Source: Chrysochromulina tobinii
Lineage: Eukaryota; Haptophyta; Prymnesiales; Chrysochromulinaceae
NCBI GenBank assembly: GCA_001275005.1
Contig: JWZX01002613.1
Coordinates: 1-21,184, forward strand
Length of the DNA: 21,184 nt
Direction: 5' to 3'
The notes under the pieces were generated by a model. That model did not search any database and had not been told where the DNA came from. It was given only the letters and a program-made list of their open reading frames with translations. Numbering within the stretch: the stretch's first letter is position 1; the number at the start of each line of letters is the position of its first letter. The translations under genes and the position numbers were made by a program. Positions 4,426 through 19,739 of this stretch are shown here, one piece after another.

Positions 4426-4584
4426 TAAAGTTCCAAGTTCGATAGACAGATTGATTGTCTATCAGCTCACTTTGCTTGCGGCGTCAACCGACCGCCAGGC
4501 CCGACCCGCTCAGCGTGGAGCACGCTCAAGCATGATTCAAGGAGACAAGGACGCTCTCAGCTCTCACACCGAGGGTTAGGGGGG

Positions 4585-9645: not shown

Positions 9646-12128
9646 TCATACAACAAAGGCCTCGCCTTTCGCCTTCGTCGGGCGCAGGCGCAGCCCCTCC
9701 TTCTTGCCACCCCTCGCCGACAGCGGCATGTTGAGCGACGCAGCTTCCTTGCTGAGAGCTGCCTTGCTGCCCCTCGCCGACAGCGGCATATTGAGCGACG
9801 CGGTTTCCTTGCTGAGCATTGCCTTGCTGCCCCTCGCCGACAGCGGCACGTTCAACGGCGCATTCTCCTTATCCATGGCGGCGGTGGCGGCGGCGGCGGC
9901 TCCTCCGATCTTCTTGAGCTTCTTCACAGCCCCGCTCTTCACAGCCCGACCGGCGGCGCCACCGCCCTTTTTGGCGCCGCGCGCGCTCGACTGGCACGAG
10001 CTCGGGAGCTCGTCCGAGATCTCGCCGAGATTCTCATCGAGCACGTTCGTCAGATTCTTCGTCGCCTCGAGCGCCGAGCTCAGGTCGAGCAGCAGGGTTT
10101 CGTCAGACGAGCGCCTGCGCAGGGTTTCGTCAGACGCGCCCTCGCCCGCCCGCGACGGCGCCTCTGTGGACGCGAGCGCGCTCTCGCTCGCCCGCGACGG
10201 CGCCGCGGCGCGCGCGCGCGTCAAGCGGCGCGACGCCGCCTCCATCGGAGACTTGAGCTTCTCCGCAGCAGCGCTCGCCGCAGCGCTCGACTCCATCGGA
10301 AACTGACGAAACTGGGCTGTGAACTGGGCTGTGCTGGCGGCCGCCTTGGCCGCCGCCTTGGCCGCGGCCGCCTGTGTGCCTTCCCTGAGCGACGCGATGG
10401 CGCCGCTGCCAAGGAGCCCAGCGAGGTCTGCCAACTCCGCCACCTCCGACGGCGCCGCCGCCGCCGCCGCCGCGGCCGCCTCGGCAGCGTCTGTCACCCG
10501 TTTCATAACCGCCTGCTCGGAGCGGTCATTGAGTGGTCATCAGTTGTCCATCGGAGTGGTCATCAGTGGTCATCAGTGGTCATCGGTGGTCATCGGTGGT
10601 CCTCAGTGGTCCTCAGTGGTCCTCAGTGGTCCTCAGTGGTCATCAGTGGTCCTCAGTGGCCCTCACCTGATCGGTTCGCGCTCGAAAGCGCGACGAGTGC
10701 GCGTGCGAGGGCGCGTCGGGCGCGCGCTCACCACGGCGCTGGCGTTGCCCGAGCTGCGGCCTCGGCGGCGGCGGCATCGCATGGATGGAGGACGCGTCCG
10801 CGGTTATCACTGCCTCCATCTCCAAGTGCATCGGGGCGGTGAGCGGCCTGGGGCGTACAGGTGGCAGCGGAGCGTGAGAGGGCATAGCGGCCGTGCCAAC
10901 GTATGCGTGAGCGGCGCGAGCAGCGTGGCGGCCTTGGCATCAGCAGCAGCGGAGCAGCCGCAGCGCCCCCCGCCTCAGCAGCCGCGCATCAGCCGCGCAT
11001 CAGAGGCGCAGCGGGTCGCGGGCTCTCAGCGCCGTCGCGGGCGCACCTCTCGCTCAGAGCGCACTCAGACCTGCCGTGCGATTTGAACGCGCTCGCCTCG
11101 TCTCGAAGGGTTTGTACCGCCGCCAGGACCTTACGCACGGCCATCACACGCAGCTTCGGGACGATCCCGCCGACGATCGTGAGGATCTGCTTGTCCGTGA
11201 GGCTCCTGAGCTGGTTCAGGTCCTCGACGGTCTCAAACAACGCATCCGGGAGCCCGGGCACGTTCTCCAGCCCCGCAATCCGGATCCAGCTCAGGATGGC
11301 CACCTCGCCCGGTGGAGGCGCGGGCAGCGGCGTGAAGGGGGCCGTCGGACCGGCAGCCGAACCAGGCGCCTTGCTATGGAAGGAGCTGGGCTGCTTGTCC
11401 GCCTTCTTGGGCGCGGGCGTCTTCACCCCAAGGATCCTTCGGCCTGAATCAAACCCGTCGCTCGCAGCCGCCTCCGACCGTCGCGCGGAGAAGAGCGAAT
11501 CGTTCGGAGGGCAGGGCGTCTTGGCACTCGAGGCGCCGGAGCGATCGGTCGTGTACGGAGTGGTCGTCGGTGCGGCAATCGCCTCCTGCCGCCGCGTCGC
11601 TGCCGTGCGGCTGCGATTGCGCACGCGGCCCGTGGGCGTGCGGCGCTCGCGCCGCGCCGCACGCCCGCGGCCGCTGAGCGGCACCTCGTCGGCACTCTGG
11701 CGGTCGGACTTGCGGTCGGACTTGCGGTCGGACTTGCGCGAGGACTCGCGCGAGGACTCGCCCGCATTGTGCCACACCATTGGCGACATGGAGCCCGCCC
11801 ACTTGACCGGCGACTTGGACGGCGACTTGGACGGCGACATCCCCTTGCCAAGGGCTGCCGCGAGGCCGCGACGCTTCTCTCCCTTGGTGGTGCGCGGCGC
11901 GAGCGCACCCGCGTGCAGCCACTCGACGCCGTCCTCGACGGTCGAGGGCATCTTGAGGGGCGGCGGTCGGAATATGGCACCCGTCATGGCCGGCGGCATT
12001 GTCTGAGCGACTGTGGCTGCGGCTGGGAAGTGGATGGCGATGTAGGGCCGCAAAGTCGGTTCAAGGCTGCGAGCGAAAATTTGCCGAGCACGTGCCCGAG
12101 ACGACGCTCCGTGCTTGCACAAGGCCAT
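9646..12128 (-). CDS. Disordered SPSK/KEN-motif protein, three-exon model
   Basis: Proposed exons (minus): 12128-11071, 10847-10667 and 10512-9646. Introns are GT-AG, phases agree, and the sum is 2,106 nt (701 residues). The 10666 donor (CAG|GTGAGG) and 10513 acceptor (GAGCAG|GC) are strong; the first intron is less certain. In-frame ATGs at 12002 and 11990 are alternative starts. Exon 1 encodes SPSKSPSKSP (residues 99-108), RKSDRKSDRKSD, many basic S/T-P sites, and a helical domain (about 275-343) with DLNQLRSLTDKQILTIVGG. Exon 3 is Ala-rich, then has MDKENAPLN, which contains a KEN box, and three 20-residue copies of a LNMPLSARGSKA-type repeat. SPxK sites plus a KEN box suggest a cell-cycle-regulated nuclear protein, but no family is recognised, so function stays unknown. 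It is divergent from the CRTISO-like gene. Confidence 0.62.
9718..9870 (-). repeat. 60-bp coding tandem repeat (three copies)
   Basis: A 60-bp unit beginning CCCTCGCCGACAGCGGCA on the plus strand recurs with exact 60-bp spacing at about 9711, 9771 and 9831. On the minus strand it encodes a 20-residue unit with the core LNMPLSARGSKA. Copies differ by a few substitutions and keep the frame. The third-copy side merges into the KEN motif. Confidence 0.85.
10547..10660 (-). repeat. 10-bp minisatellite in intron 2 of the minus gene
   Basis: About eleven units of TGGTCATCAG or TGGTCCTCAG (plus strand) fill most of the intron 10513-10666. In the transcribed sense the unit is CTGATGACCA, identical to the array in an intron of the CRTISO-like gene at 13656-13853. 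Confidence 0.85.
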
Positions 12129-12275: not shown

Positions 12276-15200
12276 ATGTGGCTGCTGCTCGCGGCGTGCG
12301 GCGCGCTGGGGCTGCGCGTGGCACCGAATCAGTCCCCGCGCACCGCCTGCCGAGCATCAATTCCTCACTGCGCCGCGCGTCGCGACGGTGAGAGCGACAT
12401 CGTCGTGGTCGGCGCCGGCATCGGCGGCCTCTCGGCAGCCTCGCTCTTGGCCAAGTACGGATACTCCGTGACCGTGTGCGAGTCGCACGACCGCGTGGGT
12501 GGCGCGGCGCACGGTTTCACGAGGCGCACAGCCGCGGGCACCTTTCACTTCGACTCGGGTCCGTCGCTCTTCTCGGGCTGCTCCGTGCCCTCCGACAATC
12601 CGCTGCGGCAGGTGCTCGATGCAGTCGGCGAGTCGCCAAAGTGGGCGACGTACGATGCCTGGCAAATGTACATCCCCGAGGGCGAGTTCCGAGTGCGCTC
12701 GGGCAGCACCTCCGCCTTTGCTACCGAGCTCTCGCGCCTCGGCGGCACGAGCTGCGCAGACGAGTTCGCCGCGCTGCTCGAGGCAAACCGGCCGTTGGCC
12801 GAGGTAGTGGGAGGCGTGCCCCCGATTGAGGCCAGCATGCATGCGCTCACTATGACGCCTCTCTCCTCACAGGTGGTGGGAGGCGTGCCCCCGATTGCGC
12901 TCCGGGCGGACGCGGGTGCGGTGCAGAGCGCACTGCTGCGCTACTTTCCGAAGCTCGACCCGGCACTGATGGCGCGCTTCGGCCTCGAGCTGCTCCTCAA
13001 GGGCATTGATCCCTCAGGTCCCTTGATTCATGTTGATGACCACTGATGAGCTCTGATGACAGAAAGGGCATTGATCTCTCAGGTCCCTTGATTGCACATT
13101 GATGAGCGCTGATGACCGCTGAGTACCGCTGACGACCGCTGACGACCATTGATGTCCACTGTTGACCACTGATCGATGCCTCAGGGCCGTTCTCGCGCAT
13201 GCAAGTGCTCACCACGGCGCCATCGCACCTCAGGACCATTCTCGCGCGTGCTTGCCGCCGCCGGCGTGCCTCGCACGTCACTCGTGTACCGCTGGTTTGA
13301 CTTCCTCGCATTCGCGCTGAGTGGGCTACCCGTCGACCAGGTGAGCGGGTGCAGATTGCATGCGGATTGCATACGGATTGCATGCTGATTGCATGCTGAT
13401 TGCATGCTGATGGTCACTGATGAGTGGGCTGCCTGTCGACCAGACCTCGGCCGCCGCCATCGCGTTCATGATCAAGGAATTCTTCGCGGAGGGCGCCGTG
13501 ATGGACTATCCCATCGGAGGCTCGCAGGTGATTGCATGCTGATTGCACTTGATTGCCGACTGAGTAGAGCGCCGTGATGGACTATCCCATCGGAGGCTCG
13601 CAGGTGATTGCATGCGGAGTACTGCGGAGTGCTGATTGCACTTGATTGCCGATTGATGACCACTGATCAATGTAGACTACCGCTGGCTACCACTGATACC
13701 ACTGATGACCACTGATGACCACTGATGACCACTGATGACCACTGATGACCACTGATGACCACTGATCAATGTAGACTACCGCTGGCTACCACTGATGACC
13801 ACTGATGACCACTGATGACCACTGATCAATGTAGACCACCGCTGGATACCACTGACGTGTGACCCTCTCGTTTATTCGCGCAGGCGGTTGCGAACTCGCT
13901 TGCAACGGCGATCACGAAGCGCGGCGGCGAGGTGAGTTCAATTGAGTGTACTTGAGTACCGCTGAGTGCTATTGAGTGCCTCTCAGTGCCTCTAATGAGT
14001 GCCACTGATGATTGCCAATGATGAGCCTGATTGCCACTGATGAGCCCAGGTGCTTCTGATGAGCCTGATTGCCGTTGAGCCCAGGTGCTTCTGATGAGCC
14101 TGATTGCCGTTGAGCCCAGGTGCTTCTGATGAGCCTGATTGCCGTTGAGCACAGGTGCTTCTGCGCGCGCACGTGGATCAATTGATGGTCGATGCCTCGG
14201 GGCGTTGCGAAGGCGTTCGTCTCGCGGACGGGAGCGAACGTCGAGCTCGCGTTGGTGTGATTTCGAATGCGCCTGTGTGGGCGACTGCAAAGGTGAGCAC
14301 GCCTCGAAGTGCCTCTGATGGCCCCTGAGTGCATCCTTCATCAGCCCACGTCACCAATGCGTCCCGTGTGAGCGGCTGCATGCACAGCTGCTGCCTGAGG
14401 CTCAACGGGCGCGGGTTTCGTCAGACGTGCGGCTGCGTGGCTCGTGCTTGGATGCTGCCTCGACGCCTCCCACGCCCTCGTTCATGCATCTGCATGTGGG
14501 GTTCCGGGCCGACGGGCTGCCGCCACTCGGCATGCATCACATCGTGGTACGCGATTCGTCAGTGATTCGTCAATGATTCGGATGCGCTGATTGTGACGGA
14601 CTCGTCATGCATCACATCGTGGTACGCGATTCGTCAATGATTCGTCAATGATTCGGAGGCGATGACAATTGTGACAGCTCGCGGACTGTGATGGCCTCTG
14701 TGAGTGCCTCGGATGGCCTCCCTCATCAGCCACTGTGTGCCTCGGATGGCCTCCCTCATCAGGTACGTGATTGGGAGAAGCCGATCACTGCTGAGGACAA
14801 TTGCGTCTTCATCTGCGTCGCCTCAGCTCTCGATCCAAATGCGGCGCCCGAAGGCCACCATGTGCATGCTAGCCCGCCTGCCCGCAACCAACTCTGTGAT
14901 GACCTTTTTGAGGCTGACTGCGAGACTGATTGCGAGACTTGACTGCGAGACTGATGAATTTCCTCATTAGGTGCTGCACGCCTACCTGCCCGCGACCGAG
15001 CCGTACGACCGTTGGGAAGGGCTTGAGCGCACCTCCGACGAGTACCAAGCGCTCAAGACGGCGCGCGCCGAGCCGTTGTGGGAAGCCATCGAGCGCTTCA
15101 TCCCCGACATCCGCGCGCGCGCCGTCGTGAGCGCGATCGGCACGCCGCTCACGCACGAGCGCTACCTGCGCCGCCATAGGGGCACCTACGGGCCTGCGTG

Positions 15201-15396
15201 GGCGGCAGGCACGGACAGTTTCCCTGGGCACAAGTCACCCGTCGAGGGACTCTGGTGCTGCGGCGACAGCACCTTCCCGGGCATAGGTGTGCCGGCAGTC
15301 GCGGGATCGGGCATTGCGGTCGCGAACGGCATCGCGTCGCTCGAGAAGCATCTAGATCTCCTCGAGGAGATGCGCGCCAATAAGTGCTTGCGATGA
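12276..15396 (+). CDS. CRTISO-like FAD-dependent oxidoreductase, nine-exon model
   Basis: Proposed exons: 12276-12803, 12873-13017, 13234-13340, 13444-13527, 13884-13931, 14155-14292, 14388-14546, 14763-14861 and 14971-15396. All introns are GT-AG, all phases agree, and the total is 577 residues plus stop. MWLLLAACGALGLRV is a signal-like leader consistent with plastid import; an in-frame ATG at 12147 would add 43 residues. Residues 41-51 (DIVVVGAGIGG, near 12396-12428) are the FAD-binding Rossmann motif, with acidic E69 and RVGG after it and FDSGPSLFSG next. Later landmarks are DYPIGGSQ, VISNAPVWATA, SFMHLHVGF, GMHHIVVRDW, GTPLTHERYLRRHRGTYGP and CCGDSTFPGIGVPAVAGSG, the C-terminal FAD motif. 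These match the carotenoid-isomerase-like flavoprotein family of plastid organisms, nearer the CRTISO-like branch than true CRTISO. The exact substrate is unknown. Introns are unusual and listed separately. Confidence 0.85.
12804..12896 (+). repeat. Intron 1 (69 bp) whose start duplicates the next exon's start
   Basis: The intron 12804-12872 begins with 24-25 bases that match the first bases of exon 2 (12873-12896) with one difference (GTAGTGGGAGG versus GTGGTGGGAGG). It ends CTCTCTCCTCACAG. At 69 bp it is a multiple of three and has no in-frame stop, so retention would insert 23 residues (repeating VVGGVPPI). Family conservation favours splicing, but both forms are possible. Confidence 0.75.
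12999..13093 (+). repeat. Duplicated exon 2 / intron 2 donor junction
   Basis: The 30 bases 12999-13028, spanning the end of exon 2 and the donor CTCAG|GTCCC, recur at 13064-13093 inside intron 2 with one substitution. The period is 65 bp. Confidence 0.85.
13179..13251 (+). repeat. Duplicated intron 2 acceptor / exon 3 junction
   Basis: The acceptor and start of exon 3 at 13228-13251 (CCTCAG|GACCATTCTCGCG) have an upstream copy at 13179-13202 with three substitutions. Only the downstream acceptor gives an open frame that continues into the conserved sequence. Confidence 0.8.
13318..13443 (+). repeat. Intron 3 bounded by a direct repeat of the exon 3 end
   Basis: The last 23 bases of exon 3 (13318-13340, ending GTCGACCAG) recur with two substitutions as the last 23 bases of intron 3 (13421-13443). 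The period of 103 bp equals the intron length exactly. The intron interior is made of short GATTGCATGCT repeats. Confidence 0.85.
13493..13615 (+). repeat. 47-bp perfect duplication of exon 4 / intron 4 donor
   Basis: Bases 13493-13539, including the exon 4 end GGCTCGCAG and donor GTGATTGC, recur identically at 13569-13615 within intron 4. Use of the second donor would retain 76 bases and introduce stops, so it should be a decoy. Confidence 0.88.
13656..13853 (+). repeat. ACTGATGACC minisatellite with higher-order unit in intron 4
   Basis: Six perfect ACTGATGACC units lie at 13701-13760 and three at 13791-13820. A roughly 30-bp variant starting ACTGATCAATGTAGAC interrupts the array at 13662, 13761 and 13821. 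The array fills the centre of intron 4 (13528-13883). It matches the sense-strand unit in the intron at 10513-10666. Confidence 0.9.
14044..14163 (+). repeat. 35-bp tandem array of acceptor / exon 6 start
   Basis: A 35-bp unit containing CCCAGGTGCTTCTG starts at 14044, 14079, 14114 and (partial) 14149. The last copy is the real acceptor CACAG|GTGCTTCTG of exon 6 (14155). The array thus presents four near-identical acceptors in a row. Confidence 0.88.
14531..14636 (+). repeat. Duplicated exon 7 / intron 7 donor junction
   Basis: Thirty-one bases spanning CACATCGTG|GTACGCGATT occur at 14531-14561 and again at 14606-14636, a period of 75 bp. The intron's first bases (GTACGCGATT) also mirror the first bases of exon 8 (GTACGTGATT at 14763). 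Confidence 0.85.
14704..14762 (+). repeat. Duplicated intron 7 acceptor
   Basis: The 26 bases ending CCTCCCTCATCAG at the acceptor (14737-14762) have a perfect copy at 14704-14729. The intron 6 acceptor region (about 14318-14344) is a diverged relative ending TTCATCAG. Confidence 0.85.
14862..14998 (+). repeat. Intron 8 whose 5' end resembles the exon 9 start
   Basis: Intron 8 (14862-14970) opens GTGCATGCTAGCCCGCCTGC, and exon 9 opens GTGCTGCACGCCTACCTGCC (14971). They stay recognisably alike for about 28 bases, down to CCCGCAACC versus CCCGCGACC. The middle of the intron is CTGACTGCGAGA-type repeats. Confidence 0.65.
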
Positions 15397-15655: not shown

Positions 15656-17396
15656 TCACGTCCGTGTGCTCGCGACGGGACGGCGCTGCGACGGCCCGGG
15701 GATGAGCGCGCGAGTCAGTAGATCTTGCCTGCATGTCGGGCACTTTTTCTCGATCCTTTTGATTGGCAGTGGGTCATTGTCCGATTGCCCGGAGCCTTGC
15801 AGCCACTGGCTCAGGCAGCGCTTGTGGAAGTAGTTGCCGCAGCAAGGAGTGTGCCCGCACGCGGCCTCGCCTCGAGAGCTTGCCGCGCTCAAGTCCAGGG
15901 CTTCAAGGCAGATGACGCAACGAGCTGCGCCAGGGTCATCGCCGCTCTTCGCTGTGAGCTGTGGCTGAAGGGCCTCCGCTCGTGGCACGCCCACCTCTGC
16001 AAAGGCCACTGCAGCAGCTGGCCGCTTGCGCGAGGCGTGCTTGGTCGTGGCAGCTGGTGACGGCGGAGGCGGCGCCGACGATGAGGTCGAACCTTGCTGC
16101 TTGCGCCGGTCGTCGCGCATCGCCGTAAGCAGCAGTTGCCAACAGCGGAGCGCCTCCGCCTGCTCGACTTCGCTTCGAGTGGGCGGGGCGGGGACTGGCG
16201 CTCGGGGTGGAGGACGGTGGGAAGGGCGACGGCCCGGGATGAGCCAGCCGTCGACGAGGTCGCGAATGTAGCGTGAGAGGATGAGGGAGGCCTCCTCCGG
16301 CGTCGCGAAGCTGCCGAGGTGGCGCGCCTTGCACTTGTCCATGATCCTGGCCTGGTACCTGCCGCCATTCTTGAACACGCCCCTGAAGCCCGTCTCATTG
16401 CTCGAGGACGGCACCAGCTCGAGCCCCTCGGCCGCCGCGGCCGCCCTGGCCTCGTCCGCCGTCAGCGACTGCGGCCCTTCGCCCCTTGCTGCCGCCGCTT
16501 CTGCCGCCGCTCGCTCCGCCCCAATATGCCTCGCATAGCACAAGGCCGCCTCCTCCGGCGTCGCAAAGATGCCGAGGTAGTGCAGCTTGCCATTCTCTCT
16601 GACATGGGAGGCGTACTTGCCATCATCATTCTTCCACACGTTCTTAAAGCCCGTCTCATTGGTCGACGATGGGACCAGCTCGAGCCCCTCGGCCGCCGTC
16701 GCCGCCAGAATCTCCTCTGCTGTAGTGATCTGTGGCGGTCCTTTGCCCCTCAGCGGCCACTTCGGGCCTTCTCCCCTCGCCGCCGCCGCCTCAGCCGCTG
16801 CTCGCACCGGCCCAACGTGCCGCGCGTAGCGCAAGGCCGCCTCCTCCGGCGTCGCAAACATGCCGAGGTGGCGTAGCTGGCCGTTCTCCTTGATCCGCGC
16901 CATGAACTTCTCACGATGCTTGTGAACGTTCTTGAAACCCATCCTAGTGCCCGAGGACGGCACGAGCTCGAGCCCCTCGGCCGCCGCTGCCGCCCTGGCC
17001 TCGTCCGCTGTGAGCGGCTGCGGCCCTTCGCCCCTCGCCTGCGCCGCCTCAGCCGCCGCTCGCTCCGCCCCAATATGCCTTGCATAGCGCAAGGCAGCCT
17101 CCTCCGGCGTCGCGAAGGTGCCGAGGTGGCGCATCTTGCCATCCTCGTAGATCTTCGCCACGTAACTTAAGCTGCGCCAACCCTTATGTACGCCCTTGAA
17201 GCCCGTCTCGTTGCTTGACGACGGCACGAGCTCGAGCCCCTCGGCCGCTGCGGCAGCCCTGGCCTCATCCGCCGAAAGAGGCTGTGGCGCTTCGCTCATC
17301 GCCTCCAACGCACCTGCTTTCGCTCGCTCCGACCCGATATGCCTCGCGTAGCACAAGGCCGCCTCCTCCGGTGTCGCAAAGGTGCCGAGGTGGTGC
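15656..17396 (-). CDS. AP2-repeat protein, C-terminal part with RING finger
   Basis: Reading on the minus strand from about 17396 to the stop at 15656, this part completes the AP2 repeat interrupted by the frame break. It then carries four more AP2-like repeats starting GFKGVHKGW, GFKNVHKHR, GFKNVWKND and GFRGVFKNG. Each has the strand pattern followed by LGTFATPEEAALCYARH, as in AP2/ERF domains. They are separated by linkers like PLTADEARAAAAAEGLELVPS. A Pro-rich and basic spacer follows. Last is a RING finger at 15731-15919 (CVIC, CGHTPCC, FHKRC, CPTC), a Cys/His pattern that fits zinc-binding E3 ubiquitin ligases. AP2 repeats bind DNA in plants and apicomplexans, so a nuclear DNA-binding E3 is a reasonable inference. 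The gene is convergent with the CRTISO-like gene, whose stop is 260 bp away. Confidence 0.82.
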
Positions 17397-19560
17397 GAGC
17401 TTGCCATTCTCGTAGATCTGCCCCTGGTACTTGCCATAATGCTCGACCACGCCCTTGAAGCCCGTCTCGTTGCTCAACGACGGCACCAGCTGTAACCCTT
17501 CGGCCGCCGCGGCCGCCCTGGCCTCTTCCGCCATGAGTGGCTCCAGCCCTTCGCCCCTCGCCGACTTGCCTTGGCCGCGATCGCCCACTTCTAGCCTCAT
17601 CCGCCGTAGCTTCGTCCCCCTGGCCTCATCCGCCGAGAGAGGTTGCGGCGCTTTGCTCATCGCCTCCAACACACCTGCTTTCGCTCGCTCCGATCGAACG
17701 TGCCTCGCGTAGCACAAGGCCGCCTCCTCCGGCGTCGCAAACATGGCGAGGTGGCGCAGCTTGCCTTTCTCCCAAATCTGCGCCGCATACCTGCCACCCT
17801 TCTTGAACACGCCCCTGAAGCCCGTCTCGGTGCCCGGGGACGGCACCAGCTCGAGCCCCTCGGCTGCCGCGGCCGCCCTGGCCTCGTCCGGTGTGAGCGG
17901 CCGCGGCCCTGCAAGCCTCGCCTGCGCTGCCTCGGCCGCCGATCGCTCCGCCCCACCGTGCCTCGCGTAGCACAAGGCAGCCTCCTCCGCCGTCACGAAC
18001 CTACCAAGGTAGCGCTGCTTGCCATTCTCCACGATCTGCGCCTTGTACCCGCCTGGATGCTTAGCCACACCCTTGAAGCCCGTCTCATTGCGCATGGAGT
18101 GCACCAGCTCGAGCCCCTCGGCTGTCGCCGCTGCCCTGGCCTCGTCTGGTAACATCTCGCTCTTCCCATTATGAAGGTAGCGTGCAAGACGGTTCTGTGG
18201 CTCCTCGCGAAAGGTTCTGTGGAGGTTCCGTGAAGGTTCCGTGAAGGTTCCGTGAGGGTCCCGTCGCTCCTCGTTCCGAAAGCGATCACTGCCCCCGGCG
18301 CCGCGGTCGGACAGAACCTTGCGTTTGAGCTGCCGGTTGGATGCCCCCGATGCGCCCTGACTCTCTGAGGGCTCCGCCATCACCTCCACCTCCTCCGGCT
18401 CCTCGGGCTCCGCCGGCTCTTCGGCTTCTTCCTTGGCGATCGTCTTGATGAACCGCGGCGCCACGCGCTCCTCGTGGTCGCCATCGTCGTAGTGCAGATC
18501 GCACGTGCCGTCCTCGTGCACCGCCGTCACCACGCCATCGAACCAGTTGCGGCCTCCTATCTGCCCCTGGTACTTGCCTTGGATGCGATCGCCCACTTCT
18601 AGCCTCATCCGCAGTAGCTTCGTCCCCCTGGCCTCATCCGCCGAGAGAGGCTGTGGCGCTTTGCTCATCGCCTCCAACGCCCCTGCCGCCGCTCGCTCCG
18701 CCGCGATGTGTCTCGCGTAGCACAAGGCCGCCTCCTCCGGCGTCGCGAAGGTGCCGAGGTGGCGCATCTTGCCATATCCCTTGATCTGAAGATCAAAATT
18801 ATCCCACACCTCCACCCTGTATTTGCCATGACTCTTGCAAACGCCTTTGAAGCCCGTCTCACTGCTAGAGGACGGCACCAGCTCGAGCCCCTCGGCCGCC
18901 GCGGCCGCCCTGGCCTCGTCCGCCGTCAGCGGCCGCCCTTTGATCCTCGCCTCGGCCGCCTCTGCCGCCGCTCGCTCCGCACCTATGTACCTCGCGTAGC
19001 ACAAGGCCGCCTCCTCCGGCGTATTGAAATTGCCAAGGTAGCGGCACTTGCCATTCTCCTTGAGCTTCGCAACGTACCTGCCACAGTTCTTGCGCACACC
19101 CCTGAAGCCATTCACATTGAAGAACGAGGGCACCAGCTCTAGCCCCTCGGCCGCCGCGGCCGCCCTGACCTCGTCCGCCGTGAGCGGTCGGTACACTGCG
19201 GCCCTCTCCTTCGCCGCCTCCGCCGCTTCGGCAGCGGATCGCTCCGCTCCGATGTACCTCGCGTAGCACAAGGCCGCCTCCTCCGGCGTCGCAAAGCTGC
19301 CTAGGTAGCGCTGCTTGCGATTCTCGCAACTCTGCACCTTGTACCCGCCTGGATGCTTGGCCACGCCTTTGAAGCCCGTCTCATTGCTCGAGGACGGCAC
19401 CAGCTCGAGCCCCTCGGCCGCCGCGGCCGCCCTGGCCTCGTCCGCTGTGAGCGGCTGCGGCCCTTTGCCCCTCGCCTGCGCCGCCTCAGCCGCCGCTCGC
19501 TCCGCCCCAATATGCCTCGCATAGCGCAAGGCAGCCTCCTCCGACGTCGCGAACCTGGCC
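16290..19560 (-). repeat. Tandem array of AP2-encoding units (about 255-290 bp each)
   Basis: Ten complete units and one truncated unit can be counted from the recurring GFKGV and FATPEEAALCYARH phrases. DNA identity between units is high, especially in the GCCTCCTCCGGCGTCGC and AGCCCCTCGGCCGCCGC blocks. Such an array is prone to unequal crossing-over and to assembly collapse. Confidence 0.85.
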
Positions 19561-19571
19561 TCCTCCGCCAA
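17397..19571 (-). CDS. AP2-repeat protein, N-terminal part with Tudor-like domain (5' end missing)
   Basis: The frame enters in the middle of an AP2 repeat (ARFATSEEAALRYARH), so the true start is absent or in an unseen exon. The first in-frame ATG comes only 300 codons later. AP2-like repeats begin at residues 67, 155, 240, 498, 584 and 704, counted from 19571. Between the third and fourth lies a Tudor-like domain, residues 326-376 (18444-18596): GDRIQGKYQGQ, WFDGVVTAVHEDGTCDLHYD, DGDHEERV. A Glu/Pro-rich acidic stretch and an 11-bp coding repeat follow. A remnant of the Tudor start (RLEVGDRGQGK, 659-669) recurs before the last repeat, so the AP2-Tudor block was duplicated and partly deleted. 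At 17396-17398 TGCGAGC replaces the TGCAGC of sister repeats. This one extra base shifts the frame into the downstream part. Confidence 0.78.
18212..18258 (-). repeat. 11-bp coding repeat AGGTTCCGTGA
   Basis: AGGTTCCGTGA occurs at 18223-18233, 18234-18244 and 18245-18255, with a diverged copy before them. An 11-bp unit cycles through all three frames but stays open on the minus strand (TFTEPSRNLHRTFREEP). It may be a former intron or a recent expansion. Confidence 0.75.
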
Positions 19572-19608
19572 TGCTCTGCCGCCAATGCTCTGCCGCCAAT
19601 GCTCTGCA
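19567..19608. repeat. 14-bp tandem repeat at the 5' end of the AP2 gene
   Basis: GCCAATGCTCTGCC lies at 19567-19580 and 19581-19594, with a one-base variant at 19595-19608. It sits exactly where the truncated AP2 frame begins. Confidence 0.8.
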
Positions 19609-19739
19609 CCTTGCGTTCAAAAGTGTTCAAGCAACAGTTTTAAGCGTTCATAAACGCGCTCCGAGCGCCTCATCTCCGAGTCGTCAAGCGCTCCGAGCAC
19701 TCCGAGGCCGCCACCCATCGAGATGCTTCCGGAAGCGAT

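Follow-up and report, generated by a model that had tools for sequence, protein, structure and literature searches.

The genome of the haptophyte Chrysochromulina tobinii is very probably being invaded, or was invaded recently, by introner-like cassettes that leave long target-site duplications (TSDs). The pattern came to light in a predicted nine-exon gene resembling carotenoid isomerase (CRTISO) on contig JWZX01002613.1, within a stretch of 21,184 nucleotides (nt) of the forward strand that we refer to as the window. A first-pass annotation of the window had proposed that seven of the eight introns of this gene carry copies of splice junctions, and that these copies could be evidence either for intron creation by tandem duplication of exonic segments containing AGGT or for growth of introns by junction slippage. 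A repeat search finds the named copies in all seven introns, and junction copies of this kind are genuine, above chance and genome-wide. The proposed interpretation holds up in part: the copies record both intron gain and later growth at junctions, but an origin of the introns as tandem copies of exonic AGGT segments is not supported.

Three observations carry this conclusion. Introns share cassettes, their duplications keep one register relative to the splice site, and some paralogous sites are empty. Intron 1 of the CRTISO-like gene illustrates the arrangement. It begins like exon 2, with 26 of 27 nucleotides identical at a period of 69, which is also the length of the intron. The copy, of 25-27 bp, is accompanied by TCTCTCCTCACAG and by a match of 20/25 to the core of a cassette that we call F2, and its TSD score is 22.5, compared with a maximum of 5.5 in 28 null trials.

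Junction copies compared with chance

The genome (53 Mb in 2253 contigs) was sampled as a set of 20 pieces of 10 kb, taken from contigs numbered 1-210 in steps of 11, and as 11 further 3-kb pieces selected for holding a 10-mer repeat, two of which overlap each other. Including the window, the sample amounts to 33 pieces and 254,396 bases. A custom gene finder, a hidden Markov model (HMM) trained on the sample itself, predicted 95 internal introns, of which 92 are distinct after removal of three introns of L010, which is the same stretch as L006. The start match compares intron bases 3-14 with bases 3-14 of the next exon, and the end match is its mirror, in which the end of the intron is compared with the end of the previous exon.

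Start matches of at least 10/12 are present in 14 of the 92 introns, where the other intron-exon pairs taken together give an expectation of 0.02, and end matches of the same quality in five, where the expectation is 0.01. When the register is shifted by 3-12 nt, the hits at a threshold of at least 9/12 drop from 14 to 0 or 1. A gapped test that excludes the first two bases gives the same picture at scores of at least 9, both for starts (16/92 versus 0/2270 swapped pairs) and for ends (5/92 versus 0/2279). Within the 20 unpicked pieces, three of 43 introns have a start match of at least 9/12, where the null rate is 0.0011, and five of 43 reach a gapped score of 8.

Scanning with 30-nt windows also locates the duplications at splice junctions. 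A second copy (at least 22/30) lies near the donor window in 18 of 80 introns and near the acceptor window in 14 of 80, whereas control windows placed 20-50 nt off in the exon have one in 2/80 and 0/80. With windows swapped between introns, the corresponding figures are 0/786 and 0.4% of 797. Thus, duplications are not equally frequent away from splice sites, which was the outcome that the first-pass annotation had named as contrary to its claim.

Most introns with a clear copy belong to what we term class A, whose acceptor lies in the cassette and whose donor GT is provided by the target copy. The TSD of this class is 8-36 nt long, with a median of 20, among the 22 introns with a gapped score of 8 or more. 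The mirror arrangement, class B, is seen in CRTISO intron 3 and in the introns designated L002 86, L027 219 and L042 152.

These counts bear directly on the possibility that the introns arose when exonic segments with AGGT were tandemly duplicated, a model that predicts that both the start and the end of an intron match its flanks. CRTISO intron 1 does have AGGT at both ends with a period equal to the intron length, and one intron, L002 233, which is classed B, shows a match at each flank (a run of 6 for A and of 17 for B). However, none of the 19 class A introns with a clear start match reaches an end-match score of 5 on the other side. The DNA between the copies is cassette or repeat rather than exon, with cassettes present at hundreds of places in the genome, and paralogues carry the repeated stretch once. 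On these grounds we reject the tandem-duplication proposal for class A, and we give it almost no credence overall. The published case of tandem genomic duplication in potato RdRp resembles ours in having a coding duplicate beside the new intron, but there the intron is said to have arisen by tandem duplication itself, whereas here a non-exonic insert lies between the copies of a single duplicated flank (PMC4974935).

Shared 3′ splice-site cassettes and empty sites

The most abundant cassette end, F1 (CTGATTGCCTCCCTCATCAG), occurs as an exact 20-mer at 643 places in the genome, and the reversed control occurs at none; GT follows the exact sequence in 425 places. An F1 end (at least 16/20) is found on 25 of the 92 introns and on 10 of the 43 in unpicked pieces. 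The sequence upstream of F1 is usually a repeat with a period of about 10 (CTGATGACCN and variants), and the exact TGATGACCACTGATGACCAC of the 10-mer array occupies 369 places in the genome. The second cassette, F2, has a core (GCATGCAAGTGCTCACCACGGCGCC) with 327 exact places in the genome and none for the control, followed by a pyrimidine-rich end in CACAG. F2 comes closer to end-to-end similarity than F1, its core and 3′ end both being fixed.

The link between cassettes and duplications is also visible in a test made independently of gene prediction. At 16 of 35 sites, the 16 bases that follow an F1 end recur upstream (at least 14/16), several of these 16 being two sites within one intron; for swapped words the rate is 0.5% (n = 372) and for random AGs it is 7.6% (n = 700). 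Upstream copies with a score of at least 11.5 accompany seven of 11 tested F2 sites, while the swapped-word maximum in 28 trials is 5.5. At six of these seven, including CRTISO intron 1, the copy is 25-35 nt long and scores at least 19. This test left out five sites that lack a recognised 3′ splice site, CRTISO intron 2 among them, and L010 was omitted wholly from the placement and upstream-copy tests of both cassettes and from the downstream coding-score and CTGAT tests.

The placement of F1 is strongly one-sided. Of 53 matches (at least 16/20), 51 lie in introns in the sense orientation and two are antisense to a predicted exon in L027, and there are no copies in the 58.8 kb of predicted intergenic DNA. 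F2 matches (at least 19/25) fall into 11 sense introns, five sense predicted exons, two antisense exons and one intergenic place. The HMM labels as exon the F2 sites of L032, L038 and L045 as well as CRTISO intron 1, and it therefore undercounts introns; another suspected wrong call is L018 63, where the cassette core extends into the called exon. Introns 2-8 of the CRTISO-like gene are recovered exactly. Downstream of 42 F1 sites, the following 90 nt score as coding in the same sense at 34. The motif CTGAT is present 442 times in sense and 55 times in antisense orientation within introns, and the last CTRAY has a median distance of 23.5 nt from the AG, a distance of the order usual for branch points.

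Several individual cases extend these observations. In L011 (C90:7003-10022), a predicted gene with Filamin-repeat matches, each of the five introns has an F1-like end and a target copy. The copies measure 12-36 nt, and one is identical at 33 of 33 positions. Judged by its sequence, this gene is an apparent hot spot of fresh insertions. In the 150-nt intron of L042, the HMM chose a GT donor, and an upstream GC donor fits better, with a match of 15/16 to the next exon; GC donors, too, may therefore derive from target copies. Predicted donors prefer G|GTGCG, with C at position +4 in 55%, and 7/95 are GC donors. A C at +4 of the donor looks unusual, and the preference may mirror a target preference of the cassettes.

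The direction of change is indicated by sites that lack the intron. We searched the joined flanks of 21 introns against the genome and scored 40 of the 45 candidate places. Intronless paralogues in which the repeated stretch is single were found for three of the 21 sites (L036, L015 and L049). For L036, which has a 74-nt intron and a 22-nt copy, six fetched paralogues cross the insertion point with a single copy; four are gapless, and two, which are alike in the aligned part, have a compensated one-base shift at the junction. Six more places extend past the copy in the matches of the flank search. The one L015 paralogue is gapless, and together these seven paralogues show 78-88% identity. A paralogue of the L049 site, located on its own contig, aligns over 120 nt with no gap; many other matches to this site break off close to where the target copy ends (query 339-349), are uninformative as to empty versus filled and were not counted. 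The host gene at L036 (C45, gene 1, minus strand) has ADP-ribosyltransferase and HEAT-repeat matches in Pfam and 12 paralogous places, a set well suited to comparing sites with and without the intron.

In the downstream exon, the stretch that is repeated forms part of the coding sequence. An APC8/CDC23 gene (L018) provides a comparison with a distant protein: where an intron has a start match of 28 nt, the residues on its two sides follow one another in human CDC23 with no gap. At the sites with intronless paralogues, insertion into one paralogue is a simpler reading than intron loss in the others.

Proposed insertion mechanism and relation to known systems

We propose that a cassette inserts into an exon and that the target stretch would thereby come to lie on both sides of it. 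In type A insertions, the duplicated stretch would start with a donor-like GT, and the cassette would bring an AG, a pyrimidine stretch and a module that resembles a branch point (CTGAT, which in F1 recurs at intervals of ~10 nt). Splicing in this strain is inferred to join the GT in the first target copy to the cassette's AG; one target copy would therefore remain in the mRNA and the protein would be unchanged. In the rarer type B, represented by CRTISO intron 3, the GT would come from the insert and the AG from the target copy. Later rounds of duplication around repeat filler, together with amplification of units made of target copy plus cassette, could produce the extra junction copies of introns 2, 4, 5 and 7.

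In the enzymatic step, a short intron RNA may be reverse transcribed from a nick that serves as primer, or such RNA or DNA may be copied into a staggered break. We favor such routes over cut-and-paste because the duplications vary in length, the 3′ end is fixed and the 5′ end variable, and the predicted intergenic DNA of the sample contains no F1. Blind insertion, kept only where spliceable, should leave intergenic copies, and insertion thus seems to be tied to transcription or RNA, to judge by the limited intergenic DNA of the sample, itself delimited by the gene finder. Reverse transcriptases of the RVT_1 family have 26 matches in the genome, 22 of them above the cut-off; the analysis drew no link from these to F1 or F2.

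Cut-and-paste DNA transposons, in the form of introners like miniature inverted-repeat transposable elements whose short fixed TSDs were later obscured, would offer a different source. Most known introners have been assigned to DNA transposition in the survey by Gozashti et al. 2022 (PMC9860276). However, the duplications here are long and variable rather than fixed at 3-9 bp, F1 has no fixed 5′ end, and none of the introns of the CRTISO-like gene, the one gene in which such repeats were sought, is flanked by inverted repeats. A transposon origin of this kind is accordingly improbable.

A closer competitor in its expectations is the repair of staggered double-strand breaks with filler, as described for Daphnia. 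No mobile element would be involved: fill-in of the overhangs would create the direct repeats, intron-derived repeats would be captured or copied as filler, and selection would keep the spliceable insertions. Variable duplication lengths (8-36 nt), repeated rounds inside single introns (L002 187, L006 138 and L015 274) and the existence of both A and B types are all consistent with this process, as are short stretches that the repeat unit shares with the end of the target copy; these are at least 2 nt long in 6/13 cases, against 15% of 156 in the null, and we regard them as suggestive only. The Daphnia paper likewise reports 33 such repeats and repeated rounds, but its repeats measure 4-12 bp (PMC4202315). 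Repair with arbitrary filler also does not lead one to expect an identical 3′ end of the insert at hundreds of places, nor a sense-oriented F1 that is absent from the predicted intergenic DNA of the sample. We therefore judge this explanation somewhat unlikely. The odds that we attach to the various explanations need not total one, because repair of this type overlaps with the break-copying variant of the cassette-insertion model.

One possibility, to which we give somewhat less than even odds, is that the cassettes constitute a distinct introner class. Its members would be minimal 3′ splice-site cassettes, consisting of branch-point repeats, a pyrimidine stretch and an AG, that are copied in the sense orientation by an RNA-linked or break-copying route, duplicate a target of ~10-36 bp and recruit the donor from it. 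If so, this class would unite the introner and the broken-DNA-repair models in one genome, and it would include single genes with five fresh insertions (L011) and introns that grow by further rounds of the same event.

A number of observations weigh against invasion by cassettes as the explanation of these introns. Support for the predicted splicing comes from homology and from a gene finder whose training set was the sample itself. Eleven of the 33 pieces were picked for the 10-mer array, and without them the signal is weaker, though still above chance. Clear ungapped duplications are lacking in 68 of the 92 introns, and many introns are thus older or of other origin. In the window itself, the strict test (at least 9/12) is positive for 0/10 starts and 1/10 ends of predicted introns, a low score that follows from intron 1 not being called and from the divergence of introns 7 and 8. 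CRTISO introns 4 and 6 are not accounted for by cassette insertion. F1 introns share mostly the 3′ end and the 10-nt repeat theme, and F1 is not a whole-length transposon copy, since the 5′ part is variable repeat. Four of the 42 F1 sites score as coding on the opposite strand downstream. The F2 matches in two antisense predicted exons and one intergenic place are perhaps due to chance; none was recognised as a whole cassette, one lacking the 3′ end and two being under the core threshold. Finally, the empty sites are paralogues rather than alleles, and none was recognised for 18 of the 21 introns searched.

Several described systems share features with these introns. Like the introners of Gozashti et al. 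2022, they are similar introns at unrelated sites in one genome, as the counts of F1 and F2 demonstrate, and they appear to have entered intronless sites, judging by the paralogues at 3/21 sites. In both systems the element brings one splice site and the duplicated target the other; the mRNA is restored in most of the surveyed families, and a haptophyte example exists (PMC9860276). That example, from a Chrysochromulina sp. metagenome, has a 4-bp TSD and carries the 5′ splice site, and the characterised families have TSDs of 3-9 bp, whereas here the TSD is 8-36 nt and the main type carries the 3′ site (PMC9860276). End-to-end intron similarity, typical of introners, is not seen for F1. As in the Daphnia staggered-break introns, the edge of one flanking exon is directly repeated at the far end of the intron, and there are internal repeated rounds; the inserts in Daphnia are of unrelated and mostly unknown origin, whereas the F1 and F2 ends are shared genome-wide (PMC4202315). 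The introner elements of Amoebophrya are also invasive repeated introns with direct repeats at their borders, but they have mostly non-canonical splice sites, inverted repeats of 8-20 nt and direct repeats of 3-5 nt (PMC7789003). The introns described here are GT/GC-AG, a limit set by the gene finder, and in the CRTISO-like gene, the only one examined for this, inverted repeats did not border the introns.

By themselves, long repeats close to splice sites have precedent: a 2025 survey of 213 introns of many kinds reports that all have direct repeats near their borders, with lengths of 4-30 bp and a mean of 11.4 (PMC11782384). What seems to be new is the combination of shared 3′ splice cassettes, long variable duplications in GT register and empty paralogous sites. 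Our search of the literature on introners, intron gain and haptophytes, which took in few subscription papers and no supplementary tables, did not return this pattern. To be detected in the introner survey, introns had to show similarity beginning near each of their two ends, and families of low complexity were discarded (PMC9860276); F1-type introns may have been missed for this reason. More generally, methods that need similarity at both ends or drop repeat-rich introns could overlook such families. The origin of new introns is a long-standing question, and some insertions here look young, with near-identical target copies. Because long variable duplications and the lack of F1 in sampled intergenic DNA point away from simple DNA transposition, population sequencing of this lineage could discriminate among RNA-, repair- and transposase-based models.

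A viral reservoir for the cassettes was considered and rejected. Among IMG/VR viral contigs, there were 0 with the exact F1 21-mer and 0 with the exact 21-mer of the 10-mer array, and the F2 21-mer was on just one short contig. This contig, IMGVR_UViG_3300027760_000958 (L052:4338-4554), has the exact F2 21-mer at 4499-4519, four TGACGAACCC repeats near its end and, judged by eye, a terminase-like reading frame. It could be a chimera, a host piece or a cassette vehicle.

The CRTISO-like gene and probable later growth of its introns

The nine-exon model of the first-pass annotation appears sound as a prediction, because its spliced frame of 577 amino acids aligns without a gap across every exon border, at all eight junctions, with the best match, a transcript-derived protein of Coccolithus braarudii (P0001, 82-83%). 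The TIGR02730 carotenoid isomerase profile gives 215 bits, which is under the NCBIfam cut-off of 586.9, and we therefore use the label "CRTISO-like." Intron 1, at 69 nt, is in frame and free of stop codons, so that read-through is possible. By its reading frame, splicing of this intron is probably the least certain of the eight, yet it holds a cassette found in other genes.

The junction copies differ in form among the remaining introns (Table 1). Intron 2 has a donor copy of 29/30 with a period of 65 and an acceptor copy of 24 nt at 88% with a period of 49. Intron 3 ends like the end of exon 3 (21/23), with a period of 103 that equals its length. The donor copy of intron 4 has a perfect 47-bp core within a 73-nt pair at 85%, and intron 5 contains tandem acceptors in the form of 4.1 copies of a 35-nt unit. 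Intron 7 has a 66-nt donor pair at 94% and a 29-nt acceptor pair at 97%, and, in addition to what had been noted before, its start resembles exon 8 (10/12). Intron 8 begins like exon 9 over 23 nt at 78% ungapped, or ~28 nt with one gap; the gapped TSD score is 12, compared with a null maximum of 8.5 in a related test that omits the first two bases. For intron 6, only the weak likeness to the intron 7 acceptor described earlier was found, at 29 nt and 72%.

The copies in introns 2, 4, 5 and 7 point to a second layer of events. Elsewhere in the sample, the whole unit of target copy plus cassette is repeated in L006 138, and the exon end plus donor is repeated around repeat filler in L002 187 and L015 274. 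The same form is seen at the donor of CRTISO introns 2, 4 and 7 and at the acceptor of intron 5. Target duplication around repeat-like filler may thus be one kind of event that lies behind both the birth and the growth of introns.

Growth by junction slippage, as the first-pass annotation had suggested, fits this second layer but fails as the sole cause. In its broadest version, the introns would all be old, and slippage in minisatellite-rich introns would have copied junctions by chance, the copies being tolerated. Many 10-11 nt arrays are present, and the secondary copies in introns 2, 4, 5 and 7 have periods unequal to the intron length, as such neutral growth would predict. The main signal, however, has a period equal to the intron length and appears in one register only, and intronless paralogues exist. 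We consider neutral growth very unlikely as the origin of the duplications.

Table 1. Coordinates of the CRTISO-like gene and of junction copies and cassettes in its introns (positions in the window)
Feature	Position	Strand	Basis or remark
CRTISO-like gene, nine exons	12276..15396	+	spliced frame 577 aa
Exons 1-5	12276-12803, 12873-13017, 13234-13340, 13444-13527, 13884-13931	+	nine-exon model
Exons 6-9	14155-14292, 14388-14546, 14763-14861, 14971-15396	+	nine-exon model
Intron 1, TSD copy then F2 cassette	12804..12872	+	F2 core 20/25 at 12835-12859
Intron 1 TSD copy 1, donor side	12802..12828	+	26/27 identical to 12871-12897
Intron 1 TSD copy 2, exon 2 start	12871..12897	+	pairs with 12802-12828
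Intron 1 F2 cassette with own 3′ splice site	12835..12872	+	core match and TSD score
Intron 2	13018..13233	+	exact F2 core 13197-13221
Intron 2 copies	donor 12999-13028 / 13064-13093; acceptor-side 13179-13202 / 13228-13251	+	repeat search
Intron 3, mirror type (class B)	13341..13443	+	acceptor inside exon 3 end copy, 13318-13340 / 13421-13443
Intron 4	13528..13883	+	secondary donor copy 13490-13562 / 13566-13638 flanking repeat-like filler; 10-mer array 13689-13826
Intron 5	13932..14154	+	35-nt unit: CTGATTGCC module and first letters of exon 6
Intron 5 unit, 4.1 copies	14019-14163		final copy extends into exon 6
Intron 6	14293..14387	+	internal F1-like end 14325-14344 (17/20), not acceptor in nine-exon model
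Intron 7	14547..14762	+	F1 3′ end 14743-14762 (CGGATGGCCTCCCTCATCAG), second copy 14710-14729
Intron 7 copies	donor 14525-14590 / 14600-14665; acceptor 14701-14729 / 14734-14762	+	repeat search
Intron 8	14862..14970	+	TSD ~28 nt, one gap, 14862-14889 / 14971-14997; F1-like end TTTCCTCATTAG

Other features of the window lie on the minus strand. A predicted intron at 10513-10666 of the neighboring gene holds an array of the same 10-mer as in intron 4 (GATGACCACT) at 10532..10659, again in the sense orientation. On the other side, 15656-19609 (minus strand) encodes a predicted protein with tandem DNA repeats of ~264 bp, and the interval 15659-17257 (minus strand) has an AP2-domain match and a RING-like match.

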